Shown here piece after piece: positions 33,781 to 63,640 of a DNA stretch of 64,000 nt. Where the stretch lies: the NCBI RefSeq assembly GCF_965363235.1, contig NC_134841.1, positions 40,081,440 to 40,145,439 on the forward strand, written 5' to 3'. The notes beneath the pieces were generated by a model. The model was not told the DNA's origin and searched no databases. It saw only the letters and a program-made list of their open reading frames with translations. The first letter of the stretch is position 1. Every line of letters begins with the position of its first letter. Made by a program: the position numbers and the translations under genes. The DNA comes from Mytilus galloprovincialis (Eukaryota > Mollusca > Bivalvia > Mytilida > Mytilidae).

Positions 33781-33789
33781 ATTTCAGTT

Positions 33790-33836
33790 GGTAGGCACTT
33801 AAAGTTAACCATCGAGAGACGTTAACCACCGAGAGT
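33790..33836 (+). repeat. Left terminal inverted repeat of the giant element
   Basis: Begins GGTAGGCACTTAAAG and contains two copies of GTTAACCAYCGAG about 20 bp apart. It mirrors 63585-63631 with three to four mismatches. The 9-bp duplication ATTTCAGTT lies directly outside. Confidence 0.9.
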
Positions 33837-33962
33837 CGGTTTTTAGACCCGCCCAGTGCACCTAAGCACGCCTACTTTTAGAGCTCTTTAGTATGAAGAT
33901 AAGAAAAATATACGAAATTACGGAACTGTATACCCTGTTTTATCCTTGTTGTTGGTGTTTCT

Positions 33963-34107
33963 TGCGCATGCGCACAAAGCACGGTGATAGTTACGGTTAC
34001 TGACTCAGGAACCTTGTATATTATATACGTTTAATAAACTGGATCCTTGTTGTGTTCAGTTATCGATACACTACGATGGAATTACGGACCAGTTTAACAT
34101 AAACATG
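33963..34107 (+). promoter_or_regulatory. Possible promoter in the left end
   Basis: TGCGCATGCGCA at 33963-33974 is a perfect match to the NRF-1 palindrome, a common CpG promoter element, 170 bp inside the left tip. Downstream, AAACATG followed by GTAAAT near 34105 looks like a start codon at an exon end with a donor. This may be a relic promoter for a lost transposase gene. No protein could be followed from it. Confidence 0.3.
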
Positions 34108-35690
34108 GTAAATAGATAGACAGCTGATAATCATAATTGATTAAGAAATAACCTGGAAGAAGAAATGAGTTAACTATTGATTACAACAGAGACGAGAATG
34201 CCATCGTGTTTGTTCTGCTAAAAAAAGCAGGAACATTGGAGTTTATGGTTAGATTTTAAATATTTATTGTCTCCAAATTGGGTAAATTTGATATAGTAAC
34301 ATCCCCCCCTTTTTTTTTAAAATAACTCGAGAACCACACATCTCGCTCGCTTAACAAAGTAACAATAAGAAATAATTATTGTTAGTTTCAAGAATAATTA
34401 ATCGTCAAAACTTATCCCCTCCCCGACATCAAAGGAAGTTAAATGTATTATCCCAAAATTAGACCAAATTTTTATGATATAAGGACGTCTTGACAGGCTA
34501 TTATTTTATTTTGTTTTGTTGGGGTTTTTTTTGCTTTGACGTCTTCCTCCTGTATGAAAAAAAAACATAATAGACCCCCCCCCCTTTTTTTCCCCATAAT
34601 ATAGCTTTTTAAGAAGTCATAACTATTTGGACTACCCCTGAATATATTTCAGACAGACTCTTCTCTAAAAAAATGTAAACATGATTTGAGAGAAATCTTT
34701 GGAATAGTTTTTTAAATGATTTAATTATTATGTCATGTATATAATTGACATTAACATAGTTATAAACTGAGACTACTAGTATAACACATAGTGTTATAGT
34801 AGTCTCAGATATAAACTTTCCATTGTATTGACCAATATGACTAACTCATATGCTCTTTCCCATAAATGTCACAATATCAATATATTACAGTAAAACTGAT
34901 AGTTTGATGACATTGTTTAAGACTATTGACCTCAGGTCAGCCTAAACTGAGTTTAAAACTGTAATTTATTCATTAAAACAGTTCAAGACATGTACCTTCT
35001 GAAATGTGATTGCATCAAAATTAAACCTAAGGCATAACATACTTAGTGTGCAGGAAGTGCCACCAAATAAATACTGATTTGTAAAATTAGATGATGATAT
35101 TTGTGAAGTCAGATATAAATCTGAGTAAAAGGTTGATTTATATGTGCTCTTTCATGTTTAGATTATAATTTAAATTTAATCTTTTGAAGTTTTTTTTATA
35201 ATATTAAGACATTAAAATCACAATTATTTATTTATACACAAAAAAATAATTTTTGTCCTTTTTTAGTTGAATGACTGTACACAAACATTATACACACATA
35301 ATTTTGATAATTCTGTAATGTTTTTTTTTCTATAGCCCCAGAATGTGACAAAAGACTTATTAATCCAGATTTACAAAAAATAGAAATAGTTCAGCTACCA
35401 TAAGACTGCTATGACAAAAATTTTGCAGTTTCCAGAATTTGAGGTAGAGTATAGTTAGGAATAGTTTGATTATGCAGATGCTTAGTTTGCCATAAACAAT
35501 TATGCCCTTGATACAAAAGCAGAGGAAACAAAAAAGTATGAAAATAGTTGAAAAAAGTAATCATTATTACCTAGTCATATACTGTAAATAGAAAAAGAGA
35601 AAAGCACTGGTTATGATTTGGTATTTTTAATAGCATTATCATTTGTCCATAACTTGGAATATATACTGGATTGAGCTTGACATTTATTTA
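34108..35690. other. Left interior of the giant element, no gene seen
   Basis: AT-rich DNA. A 42-bp hairpin lies at 34767-34808: CTGAGACTACTAGTATAACAC against GTGTTATAGTAGTCTCAG. No coding region is supported. Confidence 0.5.
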
Positions 35691-36510
35691 ATATCATTGA
35701 CACATGGTTGCAAGAAATGAAAGATGGTAATTTAAACCTATCAATTTTATTAAGATTTAAAAAAAAGCTTTTGATTTGGTAGAATATGACTTTCTTTGTT
35801 TAAAGCTCGACATGTATGGATTTAGTGAGACTACTGTTAGTTTTTTAAGTCGTACCTGAATAACAAAAGGTATACATTTGTAATGTTAACTCTGAACAAC
35901 AACATGTAAAATTTGGTGTTCCCCAATGTTCTATACCTTGTCCTCTATTGTTTGTGCTATTTATAAATGACCTTCCCTTATGCATTAAAAATTGTGAAAC
36001 AGACCTATATCGTTGTATATGCTGATGACACCACTATTCATAAATCAGGGGGAAACATCTAGAAAATATAAATGATGATGTTCAAGAAGATTTATACAGG
36101 GTTGAAGAGTGGTGTAAAATGAATAACATGTTCATAGATGCAAATGAAACAAAATGTTTGATTACTGGAACAAAGCAGAAACTATTCAGACTTTTCAACC
36201 AAACTTGATAATAAATTAAAGTATTACAAAATTCATCATGTGAAAAAATATTAGTTTCAAAATTGACAGCCCACTAAGTAACTGGAGAAATCAAATTGAC
36301 CAAGGTTGTGCTAATATATCATCCAGAATATACCATCTTTCTTAAATACATTTTTTTTTTATATAACTGCAAGAAAACATAATACAATGGGTGTTCTGCC
36401 CCTAATTGACTACTGTTGTATTATTTGGGATGAATGTAAAAATTGAGGGATAACAAGAATTTTAAAAATCCAAAAAAAGGGCAGCATGATAAATTCTAGA
36501 TGCAGATCCA
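35690..36510 (+). pseudogene. Non-LTR retrotransposon reverse transcriptase remnant
   Basis: Translated pieces in shifting frames match the reverse transcriptase order: an AFD-like block near 35,765, a GVPQ-type turn followed by PLLFVLFINDLP near 35,915-35,970, and YADDTTI near 36,015 with the catalytic Asp pair kept. A C-terminal LIDYCCIIW block follows near 36,400. Several frameshifts and stops (for example after YLNNKR-like sequence near 35,860) make it dead. It belongs to a jockey/CR1-like clade by general look only. It was probably inserted into the giant element before or during array growth. Confidence 0.75.
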
Positions 36511-36519
36511 TTATCCCTC

Positions 36520-39500
36520 TTGGTATATAGGAGCACAATATTCTATGTTAACCTCCGCCAGTAGGTATAAACAAATACTGTTGATAGACGGTATATAGGA
36601 GCACTATATTCCATGTTAACCACCGACGGTAGGTATAGACAAATACTGGTGATAGACGGTATATAGGAGCACTAAATTGTATGTTAACCACCGACGGTAG
36701 GTATAGACAAATACTGTTGATAGACGGTATATAGGAGCACTATATTGTATGTTAACTACCGACGGTAGGTATAGACAAATACTGTTGATAGACGGTATAT
36801 AGGAGCACTAAATTGTATGTTAACCACCGACGGTAGGTATAGACAAATACTGTTGATAGACGGTATATAGGAGCACTATATTGTATGTTAACTACCGACG
36901 GTAGGTATAGACAAATACTGTTGATAGACGGTATATGGGAGCACTATATTGTATGTTAACCACCGACGGTAGGTATAGACAAATACTGTTGATAGACAGT
37001 ACATAGGAGCACTATATTGTATGTTAACCACCGACGTTAGGTATAGACAAATACTGTTGATAGACGGTATATAGAAGCACTATATTGTATGTTAACTACC
37101 GCCACTAGGTATAGACAAATACTGTTGATAGACGGTATATGGGAGCACTATATTGTATGTAAACCACCGACGGTAGGTATAGACAAATACTGTTGATAGA
37201 CGGTATACATGTATATATAGGAGCACTATATTGTATGTTAACCACGGACGGTAGGTATAGACATATACTGTTGATAGACGGTTTATGGGAGCACTATATT
37301 GTATGTTAACCACCGACGGTAGGTATAGACATATACTGTGATAGACGGTATATAGAAGCACTATATTGTATGTTAACTACCGACAGTAGGTATAGACAAA
37401 TACTGTTGATAGACGGTTTATGGGAGCACTATATTGTATGTTAACCACCGACGGTAGGTATAGACATATACTGTTGATAGACGGTATATAGGAGCACTAT
37501 ATTGTATGTTAACCACTGACGGTAGGTATAGACAAATACTGTTGATCGACGGTATATAGGAGCACTATATTGTATGTTAACTACCGACGGTAGGTATAGA
37601 CAAATACTGTTGATAGACGGTATTTAGGAGCACTATATTGTATGTTAACTACCGACAGTAGGTATAGACAAATACTGTTGATAGACGGTATATGGGAGCA
37701 CTATGTTGTATGTTAACCACCGGCGGTAGGTATAGACAAATACTGTTGATAGACGGTATATACATTGTAGGAGCACTATATTGTATGTTAACCACCGACG
37801 GTAGGTATAGACAAATACTGTTGATAGACGGTATATAGAAGCACTATATTGTATGTTAACTACCGACAGTAGGTATAGACAAATACTGTTGATAGACGGT
37901 ATATAGGAGCATTATATTGTATGTTAACCACCGACGGTAGGTATAGACATATACTGTTGATAGATGGTATATAGGAGCACTATATTGTATGTTAACCACT
38001 GACGGTAGGTATAGCCAAATACTGTTGATAGACGGTATATAGGAGGACTATATCTTATGTTAACCACCGACGGTAGGTATAGACAAATACTGGTGATAGA
38101 CGGTATATAGGAGCAACTACCGACAGTAGGAATAGACAGATACTGTTGATAGACGGTATCAAAGAGCACTATATTGTATGTAAACCAGCGACGGTAGGTA
38201 TAGACAAATACTGTTGATAAACGGTATATAGGAGCAATATATTGTATGTTAACTACCGACGGTAGGTATAGACAAATACTGTTGATAGACGGTATATAAA
38301 AGCACTATATTGTATGTTAACTACCGACAGTAGGTATAGACAAATACTGTTGATAGACGGTTTATGGGAGCACTATATTGTATGTTAACCACCGACGGTA
38401 GGTATAGACATATACTGTTGATAGACGGTATATAGGAGCACTATATTGTATGTTAACCACTGACGGTAGGTATAGACAAATACTGTTAATAGACGGTATA
38501 TAGGAGCACTATATTGTATGTTAACTACCGACGGTAGGTATAGACAAATACTGTTGATAGACGGTATTTAGGAGCACTATATTGTATGTTAACTACCGAC
38601 AGTAGGTATAGACAAATACTGTTGATAGACGGTATATGGGAGCACTATGTTGTATGTTAACCACCCACGGTAGGTATAGACATATACTGTTGATAGACGG
38701 TATATAGGAGCACTATATTGTATGTTAACCACTGACGGTAGGTATAGACAAATACTGTTAATAGACGGTATATAGGAGCACTATATTGTATGTTAACTAC
38801 CGACGGTAGGTATAGACAAATACTGTTGATAGACGGTATTTAGGAGCACTATATTGTATGTTAACTACCGACAGTAGGTATAGACAAATACTGTTGATAG
38901 ACGGTATATGGGAGCACTATGTTGTATGTTAACCACCGACGGTAGGTATAGACAAATACTGTTGATAGACGGTATATACATTGTAGGAGCACTATATTGT
39001 ATGTTAACCACCGACGGTAGGTATAGACAAATACTGTTGATAGACGGTATATAGAAGCACTATATTGTATGTTAACCACCGACAGTAGGTATAGACAAAT
39101 ATTGTTGATAGACGGTATATAGGAGCATTATATTGTATGTTAACCACCGACGGTAGGTATAGACATATACTGTTGATAGATGGTATATAGGAGCACTATA
39201 TTGTATGTTAACTACCGACAGTAGGTATAGACAAATACTGTTGATAGACGGTTTATGGGAGCACTATATTGTATGTTAACCACCGACGGTAGGTATAAAC
39301 AAATTCTGTTGATAGACGGTATATAGGAGCACTATATTGTATGTTAACCACCGACGGTAGGTATAGACAAATACTGTTGATAGACGGTATATAGGAGCAC
39401 TATGTTGTATGTTAACTACCGACGGTAGGTATAGACAAATACTGTTGATAGACGGTATATAGCAGCACTATATTGTATGTTAACTACCGACAGTAGGTAT

Positions 39501-41615
39501 AGACAAATACTGTTGATAGACGGTATTTAGGAGCACTATATTGTATGTTAACAACCGACGGTAGGTATAGACAAATACTGTTGATAGATGGTATATAGGA
39601 GCACTAAATTGTATGTTAACTACCGACGGTAGGTATAGACAAATACTGTTGATAGACAGTATATAGGAGCACTATATTGTATGTTAACTACCGACAGTAG
39701 GTATAGACAAATACTGTTGATACACGGTATATAGGAGCACTATATTGTATGTTAACCACTGACGGTAGGTATAGCCAAATACTGTTGATAGACGGTATAT
39801 AGGAGCACTATATCTTATGTTAACCACCGACGGTAGGTATAGACAAATACTGGTGATAGACGGTATATAGGAGCAACTACCGACAGTAGGAATAGACAGA
39901 TACTGTTGATAGACGGTATCAAAGAGCACTATATTGTATGTAAACCAGCGACGGTAGGTATAGACAAATACTGTTGATAAACGGTATATAGGAGCAATAT
40001 ATTGTATGTTAACTACCGACGGTAGGTATAGACAAATACTGTTGATAGACGGTATATAGAAGCACTATATTGTATGTTAACTACCGACAGTAGGTATAGA
40101 CAAATACTGTTGATAGACGGTTTATGGGAGCACTATATTGTATGTTAACCACCGACAGTAGGTATAGACAAATACTGTTGATAGACGGTATATGGGAGCA
40201 CTATGTTGTATGTTAACCACCGACGGTAGGTATAGACAAATACTGTTGATAGACGGTATATACATTGTAGGAGCACTATATTGTATGTTAACCACCGACG
40301 GTAGGTATAGACAAATACTGTTGATAGACGGTATATAGAAGCACTATATTGTATGTTAACCACCGACAGTAGGTATAGACAAATATTGTTGATAGACGGT
40401 ATATAGGAGCATTATATTGTATGTTAACCACCGACGGTAGGTATAGACATATACTGTTGATAGATGGTATATAGGAGCACTATATTGTATGTTAACTACC
40501 GACAGTAGGTATAGACAAATACTGTTGATAGACGGTTTATGGGATCACTATATTGTATGTTAACCACCGACGGTAGGTATAGACAAATTCTGTTGATAGA
40601 CGGTATATAGGAGCACTATATTGTATGTTAACCACCGACGGTAGGTATAGACAAATACTGTTGATAGACGGTATATAGGAGCACTATGTTGTATGTTAAC
40701 TACCGACGGTAGGTATAGACAAATACTGTTGATAGACGGTATATAGGAGCACTATATTGTATGTTAACCACCGACGGTAGGTATAGACAAATACTGTTCA
40801 TAGATGGTATATAGGAGCACTATATTGTATGTTAACTACCGACGGTAGGTATAGTCAAATACTGTTGATAGACAGTATATAGGAGCACTATATTGTATGT
40901 TAACTACCGACAGTAGGTATAGACACATACTGTTGATACACGGTATATAGGAGCACTATATTGTATGTTAACTACCGACGGTAGGTATAGACAAATACTG
41001 TTGATAGACTGTATATGGGAGCACTATATTGTATGTTAACCACCGACGGTAGGTATAGACATATAGTGTTGATAGATGGTATATAGGAGCACTATATTGT
41101 ATGTTAACTACCGACAGTAGGTATAGACAAATACTGTTGATACACGGTATATAGGAGCACTATATTGTATGTTAACTACCGACGGTAGGTATAGACAAAT
41201 ACTGTTGATAGACGGTATATAGGAGCACTATATTGTATGTTAACCACCGACGGTAGGTATAGACAAATACTGGCGATAGACGGTATAAAGGAGCACTTTA
41301 TTGCATGTTAACCACCGACGGTAGGTATAGACAAATACTGTTGATGGACGGTGCAAAGGAGTACTATATCGTATGTTAACCACCGACGGTAGGTATAGAC
41401 AAATACTGTTGATGGACGGTATATAGGAGGACTGTATTGTATGTTAACCACCGACGGTAGGTATAGACAAATACTGTTGATATACGGTATATAGCAGTAT
41501 TGTATTTTATGTCAAACATCGACGATAGGTATGGACAAAATACGACAAATACTGTATACAGACAGTGTATAGAAGTACTGTATTGTATGGTAAACACTGA
41601 CGGTTGGTATGGACA
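36520..41615 (+). repeat. Left 68-bp satellite array, about 75 units
   Basis: Unit landmarks: GTTAACCACCGACGGTAGG, TATAGACAAATACTGTTGAT, AGACGGTATATAGGAGCACT. Units alternate between CCACCGACGG and CTACCGACAG forms. A larger block recurs with a 1760-bp shift (the variant ATAGCCAAAT at 38011 and 39771, with the neighbouring ATCAAAGAGC variant), so segments were duplicated after divergence. The last four units are degraded. The minus-strand frames of 63-89 codons here come from the 68-bp period and are not genes. Confidence 0.97.
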
Positions 41616-43010
41616 ATTTCTGTATCATGCATCAATTGTAAATAAAAGTATCATGTGAGTGACACAGGCTCATTGAAGCCTCTAGTTTTAATATTATTAA
41701 TGTGGAGATCTGGTCTAATTGATCATTTTCTCTATTACTAAGTACATGCATGATAACTGCAACAATTGAATTGAAATAAAAGTGATAATATTTCTATTGT
41801 AGGTTATAAAGATTTAGTGTTTCCATACAAGTGACAAAGATTGAACAACAAAAACATCTCAAACTTTACAGGACAGAGTAGACTTTTTTCACTGTGCTTA
41901 GTTTTGTCTTTATGTCTAAATTATGATACCTTTGAAAAAACCAATAAAATATGGAATAACATTTATTTCTATCTTATAAAGTGGAGTGAAGAAATAAGGG
42001 GTCATTGAAAACATAAGAATATATTGCTATCATATATGCAGATCAGCAGCCCATACATTTGCTATAGCACATAAATATGGGACCAATAATTTCAAGTTGC
42101 CTTTTAAAAAAGACCTCATTAATGTTATGCGAGATACCACCAAAGACCACTAGGTGTTGATCAAATGATATTGTAAATAAGAGGGTTGTCCAAAATATTT
42201 CCAACAGCTGTTTGATATACACTACCTTAATCAAACCACAATGGTAAAAAAACAGTTTTGGTCAGTCTTAAAAGAAGCAAATATAATTTAGAAAAAGTGC
42301 AAGCTGTTGATAAAAACTACAAATAACTGCCAGTCCTAAATGTGGGTGGAGATTACCATTTAACACAAATGAGTTTCTGGACTAAAGAAAGTAATTTCGG
42401 CACAAACCGATTATACCCTTTCAAAAACTATGTGTAGTCCCTTTTATAAAAGTGGCAGATTATCTTTCTATCTAGAGTATCTATGACAACTAACTGCTGC
42501 TCCTAGTGACGTTAGTCTTTGGTTTTTGAAAAGATTGGATATATTGTCACAATTCTTTTCTAAGGTACCGGTCTGATAAACAGGAAGTAGCCAGATTAGC
42601 TACTAAATATATGCACACTGAAATATAGTCCCTTAAAATTCCCATGGCTGTGTACATGTTCAGATACGAACTATGAAAATTTTGTTTATATCTTTAGAGA
42701 AGTAAAATCAAGTATGTATGTCTTTAGTTTTGTCAAATTACTGTCTTGTTTTGTCCTGTTATTAGGTAACAGTACTGATACAATACTGTAAAAATACGGA
42801 GATGTGGTATGATTGCCAATGAGACGCCTACATGTATCCACTCAAGTTCAAATAAAGTGGATGTAAGCAGTTATATGCAACCATACAGCCTTCAACAATG
42901 AGAAAAATCATATCAAATAGACCCTTGTAAATAGGTGTTGATCAAATGATATTGTAAATAAGAGGGTTGTATATTTCATGACGGTATAATACTAAACCCC
43001 TAACAGGAGG
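41616..43010. other. Core DNA after the left array, old repeats
   Basis: No gene seen. The phrase GTGTTGATCAAATGATATTG plus GTAAATAAGAGGGTTGT occurs at 42,153 and 42,937. A partial mussel repeat copy (GTATGATTGCCAATGAGACG) starts near 42,800. Confidence 0.5.
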
Positions 43011-43590
43011 GATTGTGCCTGATATTCATATGATGAAGACATAATCTTTCAATCAGTTTAATTAAGGTCTGGTTCTGGCATGTCAATAACTGCTAGTAGT
43101 CTGTTGTTATTTATGTATTATTGTCATTTTGTTTATTTTCTTTTGTTTCATATTCTGACATCGGACTCGGACTTCTCTTAAACTGAGTTTTACTGTGCGT
43201 ATTGTTTCGCGTTTGTTTATTCTACATTGGCTACAGGTATAGGGGAGGGTTGAGATCTTAAAAAACATGTTTAATCCCGCCGCAATTTTGCGCCTGTCCC
43301 AAGTTAGGAGCCTCTGACCTCTGTTAGTCTTGTATGATATATAATTTTAGTTTCTTGTGTATAATTCGGAGCTTAGTATGACGTCCCTTATCACTGAACT
43401 AGTATACATATTTGTTTAGGGGCCAGCTGACGGACACCTCCGTGTGCGGGAGTTTCTCGCTACATTGAAGATCTATCGGTGGCCTTCGGCTGTTGTCTGC
43501 TCTATGGTCGGGTTGTTGTCTCCTTGACACATTCCCCATTTCCATACTCAATTTTATAGTATGATTTACATCTGCAATAATCACGAAACA
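43011..43590 (+). repeat. Mussel dispersed repeat
   Basis: Contains GGGGCCAGCTGACGGACACC, TCTCGCTACATTGAAGA and CATTCCCCATTTCCATACTC, a series I recognise from Mytilus sequences. The 61-codon minus-strand frame within it is not a gene. Confidence 0.75.
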
Positions 43591-44156
43591 ATCAGAGACA
43601 AGTTTGGGTCTAAATCTGTATGTCCCACATAATCAAATTGACCGAAGAGAGAGGCGAAAGATACTAAAGGCTTATTCAAACACATAAGTCAATAATAAAC
43701 TGACAAAACCACGGCAAAAAAAAAGAGAAAGATTAAAAAACAAACAACAGAATGCAAAACACAACAAAGAACATCACAGACTGAACAAAACGAACCTCGC
43801 CAAAAAACTGGTGTGACCAAATGACTAATTTATCTCAGCCTTACATTATTTAGCAAACCCTTTATTATACCAAACCAAACAAAGTTCTTTATGGTACAAT
43901 GTTTTTGATCCATCGGTCTGTCAGTCCTGTTCTCGTTATTGCAACTCCTCTGAAACCACATAACAGAGTTTTATAAATCTTTGAAGATAATGAGGAAATT
44001 ATGAATTATCAATTCATTGATTTCCTATATACTCCTACAACAGTTTGTCATAAAATCTGTCTAAAGACCACAACAGAGTTTCATGAATTTTTTAGATAGT
44101 TAGGACATGCTATGTAAATGTGCATATTGGCAGAAAATCATGATTAATTTTTTTAT
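43591..44156. other. No gene seen
   Basis: A-rich and unassigned. Includes a stretch of ACAAACAAC-type low complexity near 43,700. Confidence 0.45.
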
Positions 44157-45290
44157 GCCCCACCTACGATTGTAAATGGGCATTAGTTTTCCGGTCTATG
44201 CGTCTGCTCCTTCGTCCGTTTTCTCGCTTCAGGTTAAATGTTTTGGTCAAGGTAGTTTTTGTTGAAGGTCAGGTCCAATAAACTTGAAACTTAGTACATA
44301 TGTTTCCAATAATATGTTTTTTTCTAAGCTTAATGCCAAAGAAGGTTTTTTTTTCCCTATTTCACGGTCCACTGAACAAAGAAAATGATAGGGCAAGTGG
44401 GGAACGGTGTACGATGGACACATTCTTGTTTTTGTCGAGCCTGCGACTTTTGTCGCAGAAAGCTCGACATAGGAATGGTGATCCGGCGGCGGCGGCGACA
44501 GCGTTAGTTCACTTCTTAAAAGCTTTATATTTTAGACGGCGAACGACCTGGATGCTCCATACTTTAAATGCAGATGCCTTAAGTTTGGAAGTTTCCGTCT
44601 GTCACATGTCCATTGTCCTTGAACTCATTTTCATGGTTCAGTGACTACTTGAAAAAAAGTTAAAGTTTTTTGTAATTTCTCTCATATTATGGGTAACTAT
44701 GTTTAGTATTTTCGTACCTTGGTCAGCATGCCCATCAGACAGTTTTCATTTGACCCCGCCATCATTTCATGGATCAATGAAAAGGGTTAAGTTTTTGGTG
44801 GTCAAGTCTATATCTCAGATATTATATGAAACATGTCTTGTATATTTGGTGTATGGAAGGATTGTAAGGTGTACATGTCCAACTGACAGGTGTCATCTGA
44901 TCTTGACCTCATTTCCTTGGTTCAATGGTCAAAGTTAAGCTTTTGAGTTTTGTTCGTTTTTTCTAATACTATATGCAATAGGTCAACTTTATTTGGTGTC
45001 TGGAAATATCTTATGATGTCAGCCTCGCAAGTCTCATTTGACCTTGACCTCATTTTCGAGGTTCATTGTTCAGTGTTTAGTTTTTGTGCCAAGTGTCATC
45101 TGACCTTGACCTGATTTGTATTGAATGATTGTAAGGTGTAAATGTATTCCTCATTTTGGTCATATGACCTTGATCTCATTTTCTTTGGTCATGTTATTAA
45201 TAAGTTTATGTGATAATTGTAGTAAAACTTTATATTTAGATCTATCAACATAAATAAGGCGAGAAATTTCAACGTGTGTACTCTTGTTAG
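44157..45290 (+). repeat. Two adjoining dispersed repeats
   Basis: First, a copy of the GGGCATTAG...GGACACATTCTTGTTT family (44,157-44,432). Then a TGTCGAGCCTGCGACTTTTG...GGCGGCGGCGGCGACAGCG repeat (44,434-45,290) with several degenerate 'TTGACCTCATTT' phrases. Frames 44300-44644 and 44699-44938 fall inside the repeats. Confidence 0.7.
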
Positions 45291-46094
45291 GAATTAGGAA
45301 CTATGCCTTCTGAACTTAGAATTTCGGCCTAAATATACTTCTGCATATCTTCTGAAATTACACAACAGAATTTCATGCGTGTTTGAACTAAATAATCTGT
45401 TGAAATTTTGTTTGCTTAGTGACAATGTCGGGCTGTGAAGTATGTGAGCGTGCTCACAAAGGTTCTTTGATTACACACAGTCAATGCATTGTCTGTGCTT
45501 CCCAGATACAGTCTGTATGCATTTTCTTTGTTGTAAATTAAATTAAGTTTATGTATTGTACGTCGTTCTTAGTCTTTATACATTGTTTATATGCTTTGAC
45601 TATGAGTCTAAGATACTTCTATTGTCGGTATATCTTAGATTTGGTCGGTTAACACTGTCTATGGATCAGAGACACAGTATGTATGCATTGTAAGTTGTTC
45701 CAAGTTGAAATAAAAGTCTGTATGTTTTGCCTGTTACTGCAAGATAAAGTGTGTGCACTGCCTGTGGCTCTTATATACAGTCTGTATGCATTTTCTGTAT
45801 GCTTCATCTATGGGTCTAATTTTTAGATTCAGTCTGTATACAAACTGTATCTCTGACCCATATACAGTGTCCAAAAAAAACTCTGTTTTAAGATCTCTAA
45901 CCCATATACAGTGTGAAAATGATCTTTGGTTCTAAGATGCATTTTGTTTGATTGGCTGAATGCTTAGTATATATTGGTTTCGATATATGGTCTGTATGTA
46001 TTGTATGGATCTTATATATTTGTATTTTTTTCCATCTGATGAGTAAGCCTTTTTCAACTGATTTTTATAGTTCGTTCTTATGTTGTACTGTTAC
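45291..46094. repeat. Degenerate CAGTCTGTATGCAT repeat region
   Basis: The phrase CAGTCTGTATGCATT and relatives recur irregularly from 45,510 to 45,920, with ACCCATATACAGTGTG appearing twice near its end. No gene. Confidence 0.55.
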
Positions 46095-46414: not shown

Positions 46415-46575
46415 AGTAGTGTTTGTGGGACAGAATGAACCCATAAAGGTGGAAGTCGGACGCTGACGCTATATTTGGACCTGGGTGTGAACGCCGACGC
46501 CATATTTGGGCCTTAACGCGGACGCTATACCTTAATGTTGCATCAGACTACCCTTTAAAGTGACGTCATACCCTT
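46415..46575 (+). repeat. Left terminal inverted repeat of the Polinton derivative
   Basis: Matches the reverse complement of about 52062-52321. The right arm is longer because it has extra copies of the GGACGCCATA phrase and a unique segment between them. Confidence 0.8.
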
Positions 46576-46918: not shown

Positions 46919-46924
46919 GCTTTC

Positions 46925-48723: not shown

Positions 48724-48729
48724 GCTTTC

Positions 48730-50432: not shown

Positions 50433-50482
50433 AGTAAATCTATAAGAGGAAACTACTCACTGTCATTTAGGAAATTACGAGT

Positions 50483-51450: not shown

Positions 51451-51933
51451 GAAGCCCAACGTCAGCAAGGTTGTGGGAATAAAAACGGCATTGCCCTTAA
51501 CGATGACCGGGAAAGATGTAGAGGATGCTTTGAGTGGATTGCCCGTGACCGTTTGCTGTGCAGAAGACTTGCCTAGATATGTGAGCGACAGGCGTAGAAG
51601 GTTTGTGGTCAATACGGACAACTGTGATCAAAAGGGGAGTCATTGGGTTGCATTTCATTTCCCCGCATCGGGTCCATCAGAATTTTTCGACTCCTTAGGA
51701 CGATTACCGGAAAAGTACCAACGCTATTTCAGAAATGTACTCATCGTCAATGGACCGAAATACTGTGTGGTTTGCAATCAAATCCAACCCGATGATTCAG
51801 ATACATGTGGCCTGTATTGCATTTATTATGTCAAATTGAGATGTCGGGACTCGAGATGAAGGACATTATCAACAACTTGTCATCCACTGACACGATTCAG
51901 AATGACAGTAAACTCGTAGCACTATTTGGTTAA
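51431..51933 (+). pseudogene. Polinton adenain-like cysteine protease, broken
   Basis: The open stretch runs to 51,859, with first in-frame ATG at 51503. It shows the adenovirus-protease-type triad order: His in SHWVAFHF (51641), Asp in FFDSLG (51689) and Cys in DTCGLYC (51806), with a Gln-containing stretch just before the Cys. The family processes capsid proteins. The start is unclear because the frame overlaps the end of the ATPase remnant and has no upstream ATG. Near 51,845 the frame shifts; the remaining C-terminal codons run in another frame to TAA at 51,931. It is likely inactive, though the catalytic residues survive. Confidence 0.85.
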
Positions 51934-52061
51934 ATGAAAAATAATGATACAAAAAAAAAAAATTAAAAAAGAAAGAAAAAAAACAGAAGAAAAGAAAAAA
52001 AAAATCTTAAAACACCTACATGGATGTATAGCAGGTCTCAAGTCTTGAAAAACTCTTTCTA
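51934..52061. other. A-rich tract at the Polinton right end
   Basis: An A-rich run (51,950-52,010) between the protease stop and the right terminal repeat. No gene. Confidence 0.6.
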
Positions 52062-52321
52062 GGGTCACTAAAAGTATTCACCCTGGAGGGTAGCCTGGAC
52101 AAACATTAAGATATAGCGTCCAGGATTTAAGCCCAAATATGGCGTCGGCGGATGTCCGAGTAACATGGTCCAACCCGAAGTTTGCGTCTTGATTTCAGGG
52201 TCGACTATGGCGTCCGCTTTAAGGCCCAAATATGGCGTCGGCGTCTGCGCCAACTTTCGAATATGGCGTCAGCGTCCGACGTCCACCTTAATGGGGGTCA
52301 TTCTGTCCCACAAACACTACT
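52062..52321 (-). repeat. Right terminal inverted repeat of the Polinton derivative
   Basis: The reverse complement matches 46415-46575, with extra internal sequence. Phrases AAATATGGCGTC and GGACGCC recur several times. The 6-bp duplication GTTGTC follows at 52322-52327. Confidence 0.8.
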
Positions 52322-52644
52322 GTTGTCTCATTGACAATCATACAACATCTACTTTTTTATATTATATATGTATTATCTATACGTATATATTTTCTATATA
52401 CGAATTTTACATGTTTAGATGATGCAATGAAAATTCAGAAGATATGTGGTAATATTGCCAATGGAAAACTTATCCACCAAAGACAAACGAATGTGAATCA
52501 GCCATGAGTTACACATATGTATTCATGTAAAAAGCAATTAAAACCCATTCCTGACTAGATGTGACGAAAAACGAAACTAACAGCCCGATTAATGCTGAAA
52601 CGATAAACGTAAAATTAATATCAAAGACAGCAACCAATAACAAT
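52322..52644. repeat. Rest of the split mussel repeat plus another partial copy
   Basis: Continues the repeat interrupted at 46,414 (TCATTGACAATCATACAACA), then TATA-rich sequence. A partial copy (ATTGCCAATGGAAAACTTATCCACC) follows from about 52,441. Confidence 0.65.
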
Positions 52645-55600
52645 ACAGTACTCCTATATACAGTCTATCAACAGTATTTGTCTATACCTACCGTCGGTGA
52701 TTAACATGCAATATAGTGCTCCTATATACCGTCTATCAACATAATTTATCTATACCTACCGTCGGTGATTAACATGCAATAAAATGCTCCTACATGTATA
52801 TACCGTCTATTATTTTTTTTTTCTAAACCTACCGTCGGTAGTTTACATGCGATATAGTGCTCCTATATTCCGTCTACCAACAGTATTTATCCATATCTAC
52901 CGTCGGTGGTTAACATGCAATACAGTACTCCTATTCACCGTATATCAACAGTATTTGTCTATACCTACCTTCGGTGGTTAACATACAATATAGTGCTCCT
53001 ATATAACGTCTATCAACAGTATTTGTCTATACCTACTGTCGGTAGTTAACATACAATATAGTGCTCCAATATACCGTCTATCAACAGTATGTGTCTATAC
53101 CTACTGTCGGTAGTTAACATACAATATAGTGCTCCTATATACCGTCTATCAACAGTATTTGTCTATACCTACTGTAGGTAGTTAACATACAATATAGTGC
53201 TCCTATATACCGTCTATCAACAGTATTTGTCTATACCTACCGTCGGTGATTAACATACGATATAGAGCTATTACACATACCGTCTATCAAAAGTTTTAGT
53301 CTTTACCTACTGTTGGTACTTAACATACAATATAGTGCTCCTATATACCGTCTATCAACAGTATTTGTCTATACCTACTGTCGGTAGTTAACATACAATA
53401 TAGTGCTCCTACATGTTTAGATACCGTCTATCAACAGTATTTGTCTATACCTACTGTCGGTAGTTAACATACAATATAGTGCTCCTATATACCGTCTATC
53501 AACAGTATGTGTCTATACCTACCGTCGGTAGTTAACATACAATATAGAGCTCCTATATACCGTCTATCAACAGTATTTGTCTATACCTACTGTCGGTAGT
53601 TAACATACAGTATAGTGCTCCTATACACCGTATATCAACAGTATTTGTCTGTACCTACCGTCGGTGGTTAACATACAATACAGTGCTCCATTACACAGTC
53701 TATTGACAGTTGTCTATACCTACCGTCGGTGATTAACATGCAAGATAGTGCTCCTATATACCGTCTACCCACAGTATTTATCTATACCTACTGTCGGTGG
53801 TTAACATGCAATACAGTACTCCTATTCACCGTATATCAACAGTATTTGTCTATACCTACCGTCGGTGGTTAACATACAATATAGTGCTCCTATATAACGT
53901 CTATCAACAGTATTTGTCTATACCTACTGTCGGTAGTTAACATAAAATATAGTGCTCCTATATACCGTCTATCAACAGTATGTGTCTATACCTACTGTCT
54001 GTAGTTAACATACAATATAGTGCTCCTATATACCGTCTATCAATAGTATTTGTCTATACTTACTGTAGGTAGTTAACATACAATATAGTGCTCCTATATA
54101 CCGTCTATCAACAGTATTTGTCTATACCTACTGTCGGTAGTTAACGTACAATATAGTGCTCCTATATACCGTGTATCACCAGTATTTGTCTATACCTACC
54201 GTCGGTAGTTAACATACAATATAGTGCTCCTATATACAGTCTATCAACAGTATTTGTCTATACCTACTGTCGGTAGTTAACATACAATATAGTGCTCCTA
54301 TATACCGTCTATCACCAGTATTTGTCTATACCTACTGTCGGTAGTTAACATACAATATAGTGCTCCTATTTACCGTCTATCAACAGTATTTGTCTATACC
54401 TACCGTCGATGATTAACATACGATATAGTGCTATTATATATACCGTCTATCAAGAGTTTTAGTCTATACCTACTGTTGGTAGTTAACATACAATATAGTG
54501 CTCCTATATACCGTCTATCAACAGTATGTGTCTATACCTACTGTCGGTAGTTAAAATACAATATAGTGCTCCTATATACCGTCTATCAACAGTATTTGTT
54601 TATACCTACCGTCGGTGGTTAACATACAATATAGTGCTCCTATATACCGTCTATCAAGAGTTTTAGTCTATACCTACTGTTGGTAGTTAACGTACAATGT
54701 AGTGCTCCTATATACCGTCTATCAACAGTATTAGTCTATACCTACTGTAGGTAGTTAACATACAGTATAGTGCTCCTATACACCGTATATCAACAGTATT
54801 TGTCTGTACCTACCGTCGGTGGTTAACATACAATACAGTGCTCCATTACACAGTCTATTGACAGTTGTCTATACCTACCGTCGGTGATTAACATGCAAGA
54901 TAGTGCTCCTATATACCGTCTATCAACAGAATTTATCTATACCTACCGTCGGTGATTAACATGCAATAAAATGCTCCTATATACCGTCTATTATAATTTT
55001 TTTTTCTAAACCTACCGTCGGTAGTTAACATGCGATATAGTGCTCCTATATACCGTCTATCAACAGTATTTGTCTATACCTACTGTCGGTAGTTAACATA
55101 CAGTATAGTGCTCCTATACACCGTATATCAACAGTATTTGTCTGTACCTACCGTCGGTGGTTAACATACAATACAGTGCTCCATTACACAGTCTATTGAC
55201 AGTTGTCTATACCTACCGTCAGTGATTAACATGCAAGATAGTGCTCCTATATACCGTCTACCCACAGTATTTATCTATACCTACTGTCGGTGGTTAACAT
55301 GCAATACAGTACTCCTATTCACCGTATATCAACAGTATTTGTCTATACCTACCGTCGGTGGTTAACATACAATATAGTGCTCCTATATAACGTCTATCAA
55401 CAGTATTTGTCTATACCTACTGTTGGTAGTTAACGTACAATGTAGTGCTCCTATATACCGTCTATCAACAGTATGTGTCTATACCTACTGTCTGTAGTTA
55501 ACATACAATATAGTGCTCCTATATACCGTCTATCAATAGTATTTGTCTATACTTACTGTAGGTAGTTAACATACAATATAGTGCTCCTATATACCGTCTA

Positions 55601-58600
55601 TCAACAGTATTTGTCTATACCTACTGTCGGTAGTTAACGTACAATATAGTGCTCCTATATACCGTGTATCACCAGTATTTGTCTATACCTACCGTCGGTA
55701 GTTAACATACAATATAGTGCTCCTATATACAGTCTATCAACAGTATTTGTCTATACTTACTGTCGGTAGTTAACATACAATATAGTGCTCCTATATACCG
55801 TCTATCACCAGTATTTGTCTATACCTACTGTCGGTAGTTAACATACAATATAGTGCTCCTATATACCGTCTATCAACAGTATTTGTCTATACCTACCGTC
55901 GATGATTAACATACGATATAGTGCTATTATATATACCGTCTATCAAGAGTTTTAGTCTATACCTACTGTTGGTAGTTAACATACAATATAGTGCTCCTAT
56001 ATACCGTCTATCAACAGTATGTGTCTATACCTACTGTCGGTAGTTAAAATACAATATAGTGCTCCTATATACCGTCTATCAACAGTATTTGTTTATACCT
56101 ACCGTCGGTGGTTAACATACAATATAGTGCTCCTATATACCGTCTATCAAGAGTTTTAGTCTATACCTACTGTTGGTAGTTAACGTACAATGTAGTGCTC
56201 CTATATACCGTCTATCAACAGTATTAGTCTATACCTACTGTCGGTAGTTAACATACAGTATAGTGCTCCTATACACCGTATATCAACAGTATTTGTATGT
56301 ACCTACCGTCGGTGGTTAACATACAATACAGTGTTCATTACACAGTCTATTGACAGTTGTCTATACCTACCGTCGGTGATTAACATGCAAGATAGTGCTC
56401 CTATATACCGTCTATCAACAGAATTTATCTATACCTACCGTCGGTGATTAACATGCAATAAAATGCTCCTATATACCGTCTATTATAATTTTTTTTTCTA
56501 AACCTACCGTCGGTAGTTAACATGCGATATAGTGCTCCTATATACCGTCTATCAACAGTATTTGTCTATACCTACTGTCGGTAGTTAACATACAGTATAG
56601 TGCTCCTATACACCGTATATCAACAGTATTTGTCTGTACCTACCGTCGGTGGTTAACATACAATACAGTGCTCCATTACACAGTCTATTGACAGTTGTCT
56701 ATACCTACCGTCGGTGATTAACATGCAAGATAGTGCTCCTATATACCGTCTATCAACAGTATTTGTTTATACCTACCGTTGGTGGTTAACATACAATATA
56801 GTGCTCCTATATACCGTCTATCAAGAGTTTTAGTCTATACCTACTGTTGGTAGTTAACGTACAATGTAGTGCTCCTATATACCGTCTATCAACAGTATTA
56901 GTCTATACCTACTGTCGGTAGTTAACATACAATATAGAGCTCCTATATACCGTCTATCAACAGTATTTGTCTATACCTACTGTCGGTGGTTAACATACAA
57001 TTTAGTGCTCCTATAAACCGTCTATCAACAGTATTTGTCTATACCTACTGTCGGTAGTTAACATACAATATAGTGCTCCTATATACCGTCTATCAACAGT
57101 ATTTGTCTATACCTACCGTCGGTGATTAACATACGATATAGAGCTATTACACATACCGTCTATCAAAAGTTTTAGTCTTTACCTACTGTTGGTACTTAAC
57201 ATACAATATAGTGCTCCTATATACCGTCTATCAACAGTATTTGTCTATACCTACTGTCGGTAGTTAACATACAATATAGTGCTCCTACATGTGTAGATAC
57301 CGTCTATCAACAGTATTTGTCTATACCTACTGTCGGTAGTTAACATACAATATAGTGCTCCTATATACCGTCTATCAACAGTATGTGTCTATACCTACCG
57401 TCGGTAGTTAACATACAATATAGAGCTCCTATATACCGTCTATCAACAGTATTTGTCTATACCTACTGTCGGTAGTTAACATACAGTATAGTGCTCCTAT
57501 ACACCGTATATCAACAATATTTGTCTGTACCTACCGTCGGTGGTTAACATACAATACAGTGCTCCATTACACAGTCTATTGACAGTTGTCTATACCTACC
57601 GTCGGTGATTAACATGCAAGATAGTGCTCCTATATACCGTCTATCAACAGAATTTATCTATACCTACCGTCGGTGATTAACATGCAATAAAATGCTCCTA
57701 TATACCGTCTATTATATTTTTTTTTTCTAAACCTACCGTCGGTAGTTAACATGCGATATAGTGCTCCTATATACCGTCTACCCACAGTATTTATCTATAC
57801 CTACTGTCGGTGGTTAACATGCAATACAGTACTCCTATTCACCGTATATCAACAGTATTTGTCTATACCTACCGTCGGTGGTTAACATACAATATAGTGC
57901 TCCTATATAACGTCTATCAACAGTATTTGTCTATACCTACTGTCGGTAGTTAACATACAATATAGTGCTCCTATATACCGTCTATCAACAGTATGTGTCT
58001 ATACCTAATGTCTGTAGTTAACATACAATATAGTGCTCCTATATACCGTCTATCAATAGTATTTGTCTATACTTACTGTAGGTAGTTAACATACAATATA
58101 GTGCTCCTATATACCGTCTATCAACAGTATTTGTCTATACCTACTGTCGGTAGTTAACGTACAATATAGTGCTCCTATATACCGTGTATCACCAGTATTT
58201 GTCTATACCTACCGTCGGTAGTTAACATACAATATAGTGCTCCTATATACAGTCTATCAACAGTATTTGTCTATACCTACTGTCGGTAGTTAACATACAA
58301 TATAGTGCTCCTATATACCGTCTATCACCAGTATTTGTCTATACCTACTGTCGGTAGTTAACATACAATATAGTGCTCCTATATACCGTCTATCAACAGT
58401 ATTTGTCTATACCTACCGTCGATGATTAACATACGATATAGTGCTATTATATATACCGTCTATCAAGAGTTTTAGTCTATACCTACTGTTGGTAGTTAAC
58501 ATACAATATAGTGCTCCTATATACCGTCTATCAATAGTATGTGTCTATACCTACTGTCGGTAGTTAAAATACAATATAGTGCTCCTATATACCGTCTATC

Positions 58601-60912
58601 AACAGTATTTGTTTATACCTACCGTCGGTGGTTAACATACAATATAGTGCTCCTATATACCGTCTATCAAGAGTTTTAGTCTATACCTACTGTTGGTAGT
58701 TAACGTACAATGTAGTGCTCCTATATACCGTCTATCAACAGTATTAGTCTATACCTACTGTCGGTAGTTAACATACAATATAGAGCTCCTATATACCGTC
58801 TAACAACAGTATTTGTCTATACCTACTGTCGGTAGTTAACATACAATATAGTGCTCCTATATACAGTCTATCAACAGTATTTGTCTATACCTACCGTCGG
58901 TGGTTAACATACAATATAGTGCTCCTATATACCGTCTATCAGCAGTATTTGTCTATACCTACCGTCGGTGGTTAATATACAATATAGTGCTCCTATATAC
59001 CGTCTATCACCAGTATTTGTCTATACCTACTGTAGGTAGTTAACATACAATATAGTGCTCTTATATACCGTCTATCACAAGTATTTGTCTATACCTACCG
59101 TCGGTGATTAACATACGATATAGTGCTATTACATATACCGTCTATCTAGAGTTTTAGTCTTTACCTACTGTTGGTAGTTAACATACAATATAGTGCTCCT
59201 ATATACCGTCTATCAACAGTATTTGTCTATACCTACTGTCGGTAATTAACATACAATATAGTGCTCCTACATGTGTATATATATACCGTCTATCAACAGT
59301 ATTTGTCTATACCTACCGTCGGTGGTTAACATACAATATAGTGCTCCTATATACCGTCTATCAAGAGTTTTAGTCTATACCTACTGTTGGTAGTTAACAT
59401 ACAATATAGTGCTCCTATATACCGTCTATAAACAGTATTTGTCTATACCTACCGTCGGTGGTTAACATGCAATATAGTCATCCTATATACTGTCTATCAA
59501 CAGTATTTGTCTATACCTACCGTCGGTGGTTAACATGCAATATAGTCATCCTATATACTGTCTATCAACAGTATTTGTCTATACCTACCGTTGGTGGTTA
59601 ACATGCCATACAGTACTCCTATATATCGTCTATCAACAGTATTTGTCTGTACCTACCGTCGGTGGTTAACATACCATACAGTACTCCTATATACCGTATA
59701 TCAACAGTACCTGTCTATACCTACCATCGGTGGTTAACAAGCATTACAGTACTCCTATATACCGTCTATCAATACTATTTTTCTCTACCTACCGTCGGTG
59801 GTTAACATATAATACAGTGTACCTATATACCGTCTATTATCAGTATTTTTCTAAACCTACCATAGGTGGTTAATATGCAATATAGTGCTCCTATATACCG
59901 TCTATCAACACTATGTTTCTAACCTGTTTCTATACCCACCGTCGGTGGTTAACATGCAATACAGTGCACCTATATACCGTATATCAACAGTATTTATCTA
60001 TACCTATCGTCGGTGGTTAACATGCAATATAGTCCTCCTATATACTGTCTATCAACAGTATTTAGTCTATACCTACCGTCGTTGGTTAACATGACATATA
60101 GTACTCCTATATACCGTATATCAACAGTACCTGTTTATACCTACCATCGGTGGTTAACAAGCAATACAGTACTCCTATATACCGTATATCAAAAGTATTT
60201 GTCTATACCTACCGTCGGTGGTTAATGTAAAATATAGTGCTGTCTATTAAAATTATGTGTCTATACATACTGTCGGTGGTTAACATACAATAAAGTGCTC
60301 CTATAAACCGTCTATCAACAGTTTTCATTTATACCTACCGTCGATGGTCAATATAACGTATTATATGGTCCGTATATAGTGCTCATATATACCGTCTGTC
60401 AAAAGTATCTGAATTTACCTACCGTCGGTGGTTAACATACAATATAGTGCTCCTATATACCGTCTATTAACAGTATTTCTTTATACCTACCGTCGGTGGT
60501 TAAGGTGGTACCTAACACTACAGGGAGATAACTCTGTAAAGTCAGCTAAACGTTTTCATTACGTTGTGTTGTAAAAGGAACATTAAGCTTCTCAATGATC
60601 AAAATTGGTGTTTGTCAAATTGCTATATAACCAGTGTAATTTTTCTGACAAAACGGTTGGTTCAAAGTTTTAGAAATTTTTATATTTTTGTTAAAGGTTC
60701 TAAGTAAGTACTTTGACAAAATTTTATGAAAATTAAACGAGCCAAACTAATTTTAGTGCAAGTGTTGGGTACCACCTTAACGTAAAATATAGTGCTCCTT
60801 TATATACCGTCTTTCAATAGTATTTCTTTATACCTACTGTCGGTGGTTAACATAGAATTTAGTGCTCCTATATACCGTCTATCAACCGCATTTGTCTATA
60901 CCTACCGACGGT
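52645..60912 (-). repeat. Right 68-bp satellite array, about 117 units
   Basis: The same 68-bp unit as at 36.5-41.6 kb, here in reverse complement (TATACCTACCGTCGGTGGTTAAC...). Excluding the inserted MITE it spans about 8 kb. Marker variants recur in blocks: TCTATTGACAGTTGTCTATA near 53,700, 54,850, 55,190, 56,345, 56,690 and 57,580, and a TTTTTTTCTAAACCTACCGT variant near 52,815, 55,005, 56,490 and 57,720. Multi-unit segments were therefore duplicated repeatedly. Plus-strand frames of 65-70 codons here are periodicity artefacts. Confidence 0.97.
60504..60776. mobile_element. 273-bp MITE inserted at TTAA in a satellite unit
   Basis: Ends GGTGGTACCTAACACT and AGTGTTGGGTACCACC (one mismatch in 16). 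TTAA is duplicated at 60500-60503 and 60777-60780. The satellite unit reads straight through when the element is removed (GTGG-TTAA-CGTAAAATATAG). The TTAA target suggests a piggyBac- or Kolobok-type MITE. Confidence 0.92.
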
Positions 60913-61900
60913 TGTTATCAAAACAAACTATTTTCAATCGACAGTCTCTATACTTCACTCTGAATGACTGATGACATTTATTTGACCAGTAACATTCCCT
61001 ATTGTATTCATTATTTAGTTTTCTCCCTGAACTTGTCTGAAATATTTGCGGCTGTACTGATGGCAAACAACAATCAATCAATTTCTTAAAGTATTTCTTA
61101 ATCTAAATAATATATTATTTTTTAATCTAACCAGTAATATGTGATCGGTGAATGTACGTATGACAATTACGCCAATTTTGAAAAAGCATATTTTTTTTCA
61201 TTTGCGCACATTGACATTTTTTAATATGCGCCAAATTGATTCGAAAGGTTAGGTCTGATAAATTTAGATGATAAAATTTAACTTGTTTAACCAAACGCAG
61301 CAATCCAATGAACACAAGCTACAATATAGACAAATGTGTGTATAGACACATGTTGAGCTCATGGGTATCATCATTTAATCACACTTCTGGTACCCGAACA
61401 TTTACTTTCATATATGGAACCGATGCCATAAAGAAAAAAAAACAGGCTTTAACTTATAAAAATTTTGATAAAAAAGGGGATGCTTTATTGTAGGGAAGAT
61501 ATCACAAGGTTGCAGTTCAACAGAAGTGTTGCATGACAATACTCAGTTAAAAAAGATTTGTGCATATGCAAATGTGCTTTTTATGTCAAACTGTTACAAT
61601 CTTATTTTATAAAGTGCTACTTCAAGTGTGATGTACACTTGCAATAAACTTATCCTGCTTTCAATCCCCCTCCTCCTCCTCGTCACGTGTGAGCAAGTGG
61701 CAGGTGGCAAAAGGCCAGAAGGAATATTTTTGTTATTATATAAATAAATTCTATACATCTTATATGCCTCATGACTTGTGTTTACCTGTTAATTTGTGCA
61801 AATGAAGAAAAGAAATTTGGCGCAAAGAAATAAAAAAAAATAGGCGCTAATTAAGAGCAGATTGGCGCAAATGGAAAAAGCCGAAGCAAATATAATCTTT
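60913..61900. other. Right interior of the giant element, no gene seen
   Basis: AT-rich. Two short frames (61127-61315 minus, 61308-61493 plus) have no support. GCGC-containing phrases near 61,195 and 61,830 are not explained. Confidence 0.45.
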
Positions 61901-62379
61901 TCTCGTATCAAGATTTCAAGATTTTATTCATAACCTCAGACACATACTTGTGTACAAGAGGACAATAATATATACAACCATATTAAGATAAAACATAGCG
62001 AGACAGGACAAACGAAACACAAATACATAGTATATTTTAAAAGACAATTGGTATAATTAGATTAGGTATTTTATGATTTTCTTCACGAAAATTGATAATT
62101 TCCTTTGAACTTGTACGTTACATATAGACAACAAGCCAGTGAATTTCTTCTTGCTTGGATTCATTACATAGTAATTTGGTACAAACTTTGATCTAAGAGC
62201 AGAAACATCAGCATTTTTACAGGTAAACAATATATGAAACTCATCCCCTATTCCCTCATTACATAATGTACATATTCTATTTTCCCTCGCGATCCCCGCC
62301 CATCTACCCGTCTCAATAGGTAACTTCAAATTCGAGCATCGAAGTTCAGATATGTAATATCTGTCCTTGGGTAATAATC
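61900..62379 (-). pseudogene. 3' end of a non-LTR retrotransposon
   Basis: On the minus strand a frame open from about 62,379 to 62,057 encodes a C-terminal reverse-transcriptase-ORF tail: Y-Y-I-S-E-L-R, then ETGRW, then the Cys-x2-Cys...His...Cys knuckle in ICTLCNEG and FHILFTC. A minus-strand stop near 62,379 precedes it, so only the tail is left. The stretch down to about 61,900 resembles the 3' untranslated part of such elements. A 5'-truncated, dead copy. Confidence 0.65.
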
Positions 62380-63584
62380 ACAATAGATACGGTTCCAAAC
62401 CAAACTCGAGTTTGAATTAATAAAGAATAGAATTCACCCCTATCAGATCAAATTGGTGTTTTCTTTCTTTTTTTCGTTCAGTTTCATCTAGTCCATTTGT
62501 TCATTTGACTCTGTCTCCATCACGACTAGGATGCATTTTAATTTATAATGTAAAGTCGTTCAGGTTTTTGTTTTATTATATAAAAAAAGGAGATATAGCA
62601 TGATTGCCAATGAGACAACTCTCTAAAAGAGACAAAGTGACACCGGAATTAACTATTAAAAAAAACCTTTAACAGATCACGGTACGCTGACGGTACAGAT
62701 GTCTGTAAATTCAGAAATTAATGCGAGGTTTTTATTATTGCGACAATAATTAAGACTCGCATTTTGAAGTATTGCGTTTGAATTTTTTCTTAATCGTTGT
62801 AATCAAAATCTCATTTCAGGTTATAATGACACTCATCGCATTAAATATTTAATAACTGCATGCAACAAATTTACATTCAAAAGACTATGAATTTGATGTA
62901 TATTTGACAAGATTAGTTCGTTTAAGTTGCTAAAAATTCTATAATTAGTGTATTATTCTCCCAAGTTTATTTGAAAAGGTATAATTCCTCTATATAAATG
63001 GCAAATCTTTCATAAAATATCCAGTAAGTTGGATAAACGTTTACCAAATCATCCCAATACAGTTTGATTTATATATTCACTTTGCTATTCCGTTCTTGCA
63101 CAGTGATATAGTTCATTTTGCATCATCCCATATTCTAGCAAAGGGAGATTATCTCAGCATCACCGTTACATTAGTAATAGCTGTCGTACATAAAATAGTT
63201 AGCTCGAACTGTATGATCCTGTGTGAATCTGATCCTTATATTAAAAGTGCATAAATGGTTCACATATGGGTCTTATTTAAACATTAAACAGTATCAAAAC
63301 AATTAGTGCATTATAATATAACCAAATAGGCATGCAAAAAAGAATCAATAGGCAAAATATGCTTGTCTACCGTCTAATTCTAATTGCTAATATTTACTGT
63401 ATTGTACATAGCTCAATTCCATTCCATTCCATTCAATTTTATTTATTTTTTAATTTTCAGCAGAAAACAGTATTTCTAACAATTAAATTGAATTAATTTG
63501 ATATGACGTTGACACACGGTAATCACTCTCATGTTTTTATTTACATCGCTGTCAATCATCCGGTAAAGATGAATATTCATTACT
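62380..63584. other. Right interior near the tip, no gene seen
   Basis: A mussel repeat copy (GCATGATTGCCAATGAGACA) lies at 62,590-62,700. The rest is AT-rich without recognisable coding sequence. Confidence 0.5.
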
Positions 63585-63631
63585 ACCCTCGGTAGTTAAC
63601 GTCCCTCGATGGTTAACTTTAAGTGCCTACC
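63585..63631 (-). repeat. Right terminal inverted repeat of the giant element
   Basis: The reverse complement begins GGTAGGCACTTAAAG. Its inner part, GTTAACTACCGAGGGTAG, is very close to the satellite unit's GTTAACTACCGACGGTAG. The 9-bp duplication ATTTCAGTT follows at 63632-63640. Confidence 0.9.
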
Positions 63632-63640
63632 ATTTCAGTT

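Follow-up and report, generated by a model that had tools for sequence, protein, structure and literature searches.

What kind of sequence lies between two short, matching inverted ends that stand 29.8 kb apart in the genome of Mytilus galloprovincialis, and could so long a segment be a single mobile element? The locus lies in a stretch of 64,000 nucleotides (contig NC_134841.1 of assembly GCF_965363235.1, positions 40,081,440 to 40,145,439 of the forward strand; hereafter the window, to whose first letter all coordinates refer). The element proper occupies 33790-63631, a length of 29,842 bp, and is delimited by four features:

33781-33789, unstranded: target-site duplication, left copy, ATTTCAGTT, directly outside the left end
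33790-33836, plus strand: left terminal inverted repeat, 47 bp, with two GTTAACC-type motifs (33804, 33821) 17 bp apart
63585-63631, minus strand: right terminal inverted repeat, 47 bp, with two motifs (63589, 63606) 17 bp apart
63632-63640, unstranded: target-site duplication, right copy, ATTTCAGTT, directly outside the right end

The inverted ends (GGTAGGCACTTAAAG-type) are identical at 44 of 47 bases, and the identity just beyond them extends for exactly 9 bases. For 9-mers drawn at random from the window outside its arrays (43,149 9-mers), the probability that two are equal is 2.1e-5, or 1.6e-4 when the tandem arrays described below are included, and one further copy of ATTTCAGTT is present in the window, at 10109. 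When the first 21 bases of the end are sought with up to 3 mismatches, these two sites alone are recovered (mean of 0.00 in 100 shuffles), and the lack of any further end in the window at this tolerance argues against two separate short elements. By its ends and its target-site duplication, 33790-63631 reads as one DNA transposon. The first-pass annotation had proposed exactly this, a single element with matching ends and a target duplication as its bounds, and had called a chance 9-bp match beside such ends very unlikely; both claims are borne out by the figures above. As a whole its interpretation stands only in part, having missed both a pair of mirror-image arrays that share the end motif and the fossil of an ATPase/protease gene.

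The best evidence for one single element is the pair of arrays. Both consist of a 68-bp tandem unit (delimited with Tandem Repeats Finder), lie in mirror orientation to one another, and carry the motif that is present twice in each 47-bp end:

36522 to about 41616, plus strand: left array of the 68-bp unit, 75 motif copies, about 5.1 kb, motif forward
52640 to about 60919, minus strand: right array of the same 68-bp unit, 117 motif copies, about 8.3 kb, motif reversed

In its strict form (GTTAA, two pyrimidines, A, pyrimidine, CGA), the motif occurs 59 times in forward orientation, all within 33804-41443, and 84 times in reverse, all within 52694-63606, and is absent from the rest of the window; a looser 19-base pattern finds 183 matches with an unchanged strand split. 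Cutting the arrays at the motif with up to 5 substitutions allowed gives the 75 left and 117 right copies and 190 intervals between them, of which the 181 that are 62-76 bp long were aligned (70 left, 111 right) and 9 were dropped. Across the 181 aligned units, the left and right consensus agree at 67 of 68 positions, mean identity among units is 0.93 (left array), 0.87 (right array) and 0.89 (between the two), and 171 units have their nearest relative in their own array. Given this near-identical consensus together with the closeness of most units to their own array, the arrays appear to have a common origin and to have since been homogenised largely apart. The ends themselves resemble the array unit. 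The inner motif copy of the right end matches it at 17 of 18 positions with a score of 15.5, where none of 200 shuffles scored above 11.5; the left end matches at 12 of 12 positions with a score of 12, a narrow margin over the same shuffle maximum of 11.5. Taken with the mirror orientation, these matches argue against the accidental pairing of two short elements, and also against the mere insertion of one element into another.

Between the ends and the arrays, and between the arrays themselves, lie three further segments:

33837-36521, unstranded: left spacer, 2,685 bp, with reverse-transcriptase-like scraps recognised by eye (35864-36208)
41617-52639, unstranded: core, about 11 kb, in which no intact gene was recognised
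60920-63584, unstranded: right spacer, 2,665 bp, with a reverse-transcriptase-like tail scrap

The scrap at 62060-62377 (minus strand) resembles a reverse-transcriptase tail (zf-RVT, E 0.046, below the cut-off). Comparison of the left with the right spacer gives no similarity beyond chance (lowest E 0.25). The lengths of the two spacers are nearly equal despite their unrelated sequences.

Which transposase family could have mobilised such a unit? The anatomy and the duplication suggest that it is probably a non-autonomous, Foldback-like DNA transposon, with the Mutator superfamily as its likeliest home and Rehavkus, Phantom and Foldback as the nearest in style. Target duplications of the Mutator superfamily (MULE) measure 8-11 bp in the superfamily comparison of PMC6446971, a range into which the exact 9 bp falls. 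Long inverted arms of tandem repeats, as in Foldback elements, are present in the form of the two mirror arrays. In the same comparison, Rehavkus, a Mutator-related group, is listed with a 9-bp duplication, ends of 26-400 bp, a minisatellite and a PHD-finger transposase (PMC6446971); the mussel element shares the 9-bp duplication and the internal minisatellite, the latter on both sides.

Several points weigh against this assignment. No transposase domain, including the PHD-finger transposase that marks Rehavkus, was found in six-frame Pfam scans (X at every stop) of both spacers and the core (33790-36521, 41540-52640 and 60350-63641), although such scans are weak on decayed genes and also missed the reverse-transcriptase-like scraps seen by eye at 35864-36208. 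A 9-bp duplication also fits a few other superfamilies, such as Merlin with 8-9 bp. About 2.7 kb of unlike sequence separates each 47-bp end from its array, while the arms of classical Foldback elements run inward from the very ends, and it is because of these spacers that the name Foldback-like is used here in place of Foldback. The Rehavkus minisatellite, as tabulated, lies before the 3′ end, where the mussel element has two mirror arrays and no transposase was found, and as of 2019 that source reports Rehavkus only from insects and annelids (PMC6446971). The Mutator-like mobiliser put forward in the first pass is the likeliest one, given the 9-bp duplication and the Foldback-like anatomy; since no transposase was found, membership in the family is something we infer.

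Under the Mutator assignment, the transposase would be supplied in trans from elsewhere in the genome and would bind the end motif, perhaps along with its amplified copies in the arrays, after which the ends would be paired and the element cut out and reinserted with a 9-bp stagger. The arrays would have arisen from a subterminal binding-site motif and grown by unequal exchange or slippage, while the ATPase/protease fossil, the retroelement scraps and the small inserts would be passengers, some acquired before the last jump and others after it. The binding, the supply in trans and the route of array growth are steps that we infer. The arrays would be amplified binding sites after the model of Galileo, a member of the P-element superfamily whose Foldback-like long arms are described as carrying repeated sites bound by its transposase domain (PMC3688188).

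The ATPase/protease fossil lies near the right edge of the core:

50471-51450, plus strand: broken C2H2-finger / poxvirus-A32-like packaging-ATPase-like gene (Pox_A32 match)
51428-51859, plus strand: broken adenovirus-type cysteine protease (Peptidase_C5 match)

The ATPase-like part matches Pox_A32 with E 0.03, below the Pfam cut-off, and a weak zf-H2C2_5 match, also below the cut-off, is the zinc finger that heads this gene. The protease piece matches Peptidase_C5 above the cut-off (E 4.2e-5), and just below it in the whole-frame scan (E 3.7e-4). Across 50471-51859 the gene is broken by a stop and by frame changes, and the stretch behind the nucleotide-binding motif of the ATPase piece is present out of frame. 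A protein search with this fossil returned 264 proteins at E 0.001 or better, of which the best 120 were listed. Among these, the closest relative is P0001 from M. galloprovincialis (99% over 97% of the query), with a gene model that includes the same out-of-frame stretch, and all organism-named relatives are from Mytilus except one from Mercenaria (P0066). The less broken relatives P0006 and P0010, one of them from M. galloprovincialis, join the ATPase-like part and the adenovirus-type protease in one predicted protein, a fusion of which no description was met in a literature search hardly aimed at it. By these matches the gene belongs to a multicopy virus-type family, and its host is probably a Mytilus, perhaps M. 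galloprovincialis, which agrees with the mussel origin supposed in the first pass. Polintons are noted in a review for having a packaging ATPase and an adenovirus-type protease (PMC6431247), and the broken gene in the core is probably a Polinton-like fossil. In the Protein Data Bank, the protease has weak matches to 4 distinct sequences (E 0.001 to 0.035), of which three are adenovirus-type proteases and the fourth is named cysteine protease S273R, and the ATPase piece has none. Neither piece has a match in PHROGs. In IMG/VR, pattern matches numbered 9 for the ATPase piece and 26 for its alignment, with 0 confirmed by tblastn, and there were 0 matches for the 68-bp array unit and 0 for the element end. 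Below-cut-off Pfam matches to Peroxin-13_N, Ebola-like_HR1-HR2, OrsD, DUF1182 and Peptidase_S49_N were taken as chance.

Relatives of the arrays were sought with a 126-residue peptide read from the left array, which recovered 3 proteins. P0121, from a contig of 2,236 bp, matches across the left-array/core boundary, with 105 of its first 114 residues identical. P0123, from a contig of 1,333 bp, matches across the boundary between the right array and the right spacer, with differences, and has another repeat beside the array. Both matches speak for the Mutator-type, Foldback-like reading. P0122 (Mytilus californianus LOC127725958) holds a related array only; it resembles the translated array of a related repeat and may be a false gene model. 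The three loci could be alleles, orthologues or other copies.

Other repeats are scattered through the element and its surroundings. The repeat at 43399-43632, when translated, resembles the sequence beside the array in the P0123 contig (29 of 45 residues). Dispersed repeats at 44211-44432, 46307-46414 and 62596-62642 are found in the left flank too (32729-33089; 28433-28919), and another, at 52087-52322, recurs at 46414-46554 inside the core. The start of the window (1-3607) is filled by an 81-bp tandem array of about 45 copies with 92% matches.

Was the whole 29.8 kb mobilised at once? The strongest competing account holds that a smaller element of the same kind inserted and that most of the length was added in place, by array expansion and later repeats. 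We consider this a real possibility, though one that falls somewhat short of our favoured reading; it shares the mechanism outlined above, its odds overlap with those of the Mutator-type element, and under it the expression "single 29.8-kb transposon" is true of the ends only. Growth in place is favoured by the arrays, which make up about 45% of the element length and homogenise apart (171 of 181 units), and by two inserts with flanking duplications of their own:

46924-48724, unstranded: nested inverted-repeat element, 1.8 kb, in the core, with CTTT on either side
60504-60776, unstranded: small inverted-repeat insert, 273 bp, inside the right array, with GGTGGTACC ends and TTAA on either side

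The arms of the larger insert are about 77% alike and contain TTCGTTATAACGAA-type repeats. Against growth in place, no mutation separates the two target-site copies and the ends have diverged at 3 of 47 bases, while the gene scraps in the interior are, by eye, far more decayed, a disparity which suggests that old cargo was already inside the element at the jump. Since insertions may postdate the jump and arrays may lengthen at the site, the element may have been shorter than 29.8 kb when it jumped.

The identity of the mobiliser invites a further alternative, in which the same unit element owes its movement to a superfamily other than Mutator whose stagger is 8-9 bp, such as one with a Merlin or KDZ-type transposase, and the arrays are convergent, as in Galileo. 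The failure to find a transposase in the spacers and the core suits this idea. Merlin, which has an IS1016-type transposase and 8-9 bp duplications, fits the 9 bp in size, and Pfam found no transposase of this kind either in the segments scanned. Foldback anatomy is described as having arisen with different transposases (PMC3169594 and, for Galileo, PMC3688188). However, a mollusc transposon survey records MULE types in all mollusc genomes covered, while its library annotation places Merlin almost only in cephalopods; the transposase search in the same survey lists 63 Merlin elements, with bivalves holding at least one element of every superfamily (PMC10294476). On this balance a mobiliser from outside Mutator is rather unlikely.

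Nesting of two elements, in which an inner foldback element (about 36522-60919) interrupts an outer short-ended one of about 5.4 kb, is more doubtful again and in our view improbable. The spacers lack a mutual match (lowest E 0.25) and the left end matches the unit barely above the shuffles, as nesting would have it; but the right end matches the unit well beyond the shuffles, and the end motifs are mirror-oriented like the arrays. Nor do the outer array edges bear a target duplication: their longest common word is 5 bp, where 1,240 of 1,972 random window pairs share at least 6 bp. The array/right-spacer boundary, moreover, recurs in the P0123 contig.

An assembly artefact, with mirror arrays collapsed or misjoined, is very improbable, for although long inverted tandem arrays are hard to assemble and the assembled array lengths may be wrong, such an error would hardly yield a 9-bp duplication beside matching ends. 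Least credible of all is that the whole is a Polinton/Maverick or related virus-like element with its own ends: packaging-ATPase-like and adenovirus-type protease remains are present as broken pieces, but neither protein-primed DNA polymerase B, nor a retroviral-type integrase, nor a capsid was matched in the Pfam scans of the spacers and core, and the typical ends and the 5-6 bp target duplications of Polintons do not fit 9 bp.

What would a Mutator-type, Foldback-like element of this size imply? The efficiency of DNA transposition is said to fall as the distance between the ends grows (PMC6431247). Because its end motifs are multiplied and its ends stand 29.8 kb apart, such an element would allow one to test directly whether binding-site arrays restore the pairing of distant ends. 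It would also illustrate a possible route in bivalves from transposon motif to satellite array, and in mussel genomes mirror arrays of such length could favour inversions as well as presence/absence differences. A bolder proposal is a long shot: that the packaging ATPase-protease module of a Polinton-like virus was taken up by a transposon of Mutator/Foldback type, and that the mirror arrays serve as a multiplied binding platform through which a transposase made elsewhere can move the 30-kb unit. The element would then be a mussel counterpart of Teratorn built on a Mutator-type transposon.

How does this element compare with known systems? Galileo, with a target duplication of 7 bp, is a model for the possible role of the arrays, although its superfamily (P-element) differs. 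Transposons of more than 20 kb are counted as giant in a review whose treatment of Teratorn and Polintons invites comparison by size and by virus-type genes in a transposon-like unit; those giants carry viral gene sets plus an integrase or transposase, whereas the mussel element has broken ATPase/protease pieces only (PMC6431247). The table that covers Rehavkus also lists two Mutator groups from molluscs, MULE-Cg and MULE-Mollusca; it gives MULE-Cg ends of 48 and 296 bp, which invite comparison with the mussel 47 bp, and the table row mentions no arrays (PMC6446971). The bivalve transposon survey covers MULE, Merlin and Maverick groups, and the word "foldback" is absent from its main text (PMC10294476). 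Among the open-licence titles in the literature matches listed, none announces a mussel Foldback or giant Mutator element, a result that is weak on absence from print.

The closest parallels lie among smaller elements, and the first-pass view that no such mussel element was known overstates its novelty, given that elements of Foldback type which combine 8-10 bp duplications with repeated arm sequences have been described. Tetris, a foldback element of Drosophila virilis, has 8-10 bp duplications and tandem repeats within its terminal inverted repeats, and was assigned to Mutator by duplication size, with no transposase found (PMC4079207). It resembles the mussel element in being apparently non-autonomous, in its tandem repeats, in its duplication size and in the transposase not found; it differs in that the mussel arrays start about 2.7 kb inward of the short 47-bp ends and enclose an 11-kb core with a viral gene fossil. 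Tm1, a Mutator/Foldback family of root-knot nematodes, is reported to have mostly 9-bp duplications and composite terminal repeats with tandem units, some copies encoding a Phantom-type transposase (PMC3169594). It shares the 9-bp duplication and the tandem units, and its outer motif CCTACCC resembles CCTACC at the mussel right end, a short match that may be chance; two of its elements measure 1,080 and 2,593 bp, with units of 13-15 bp starting about 10 bases from the ends. Rehavkus, by its combination of 9-bp duplications and a minisatellite, weakens the claim to novelty further. Tetris, Tm1 and Rehavkus jointly cover most features of the mussel element except its size, its set-back mirror arrays and its viral fossil, and the mussel element belongs in essence to a known kind of transposon, of which it is an unusually large example.

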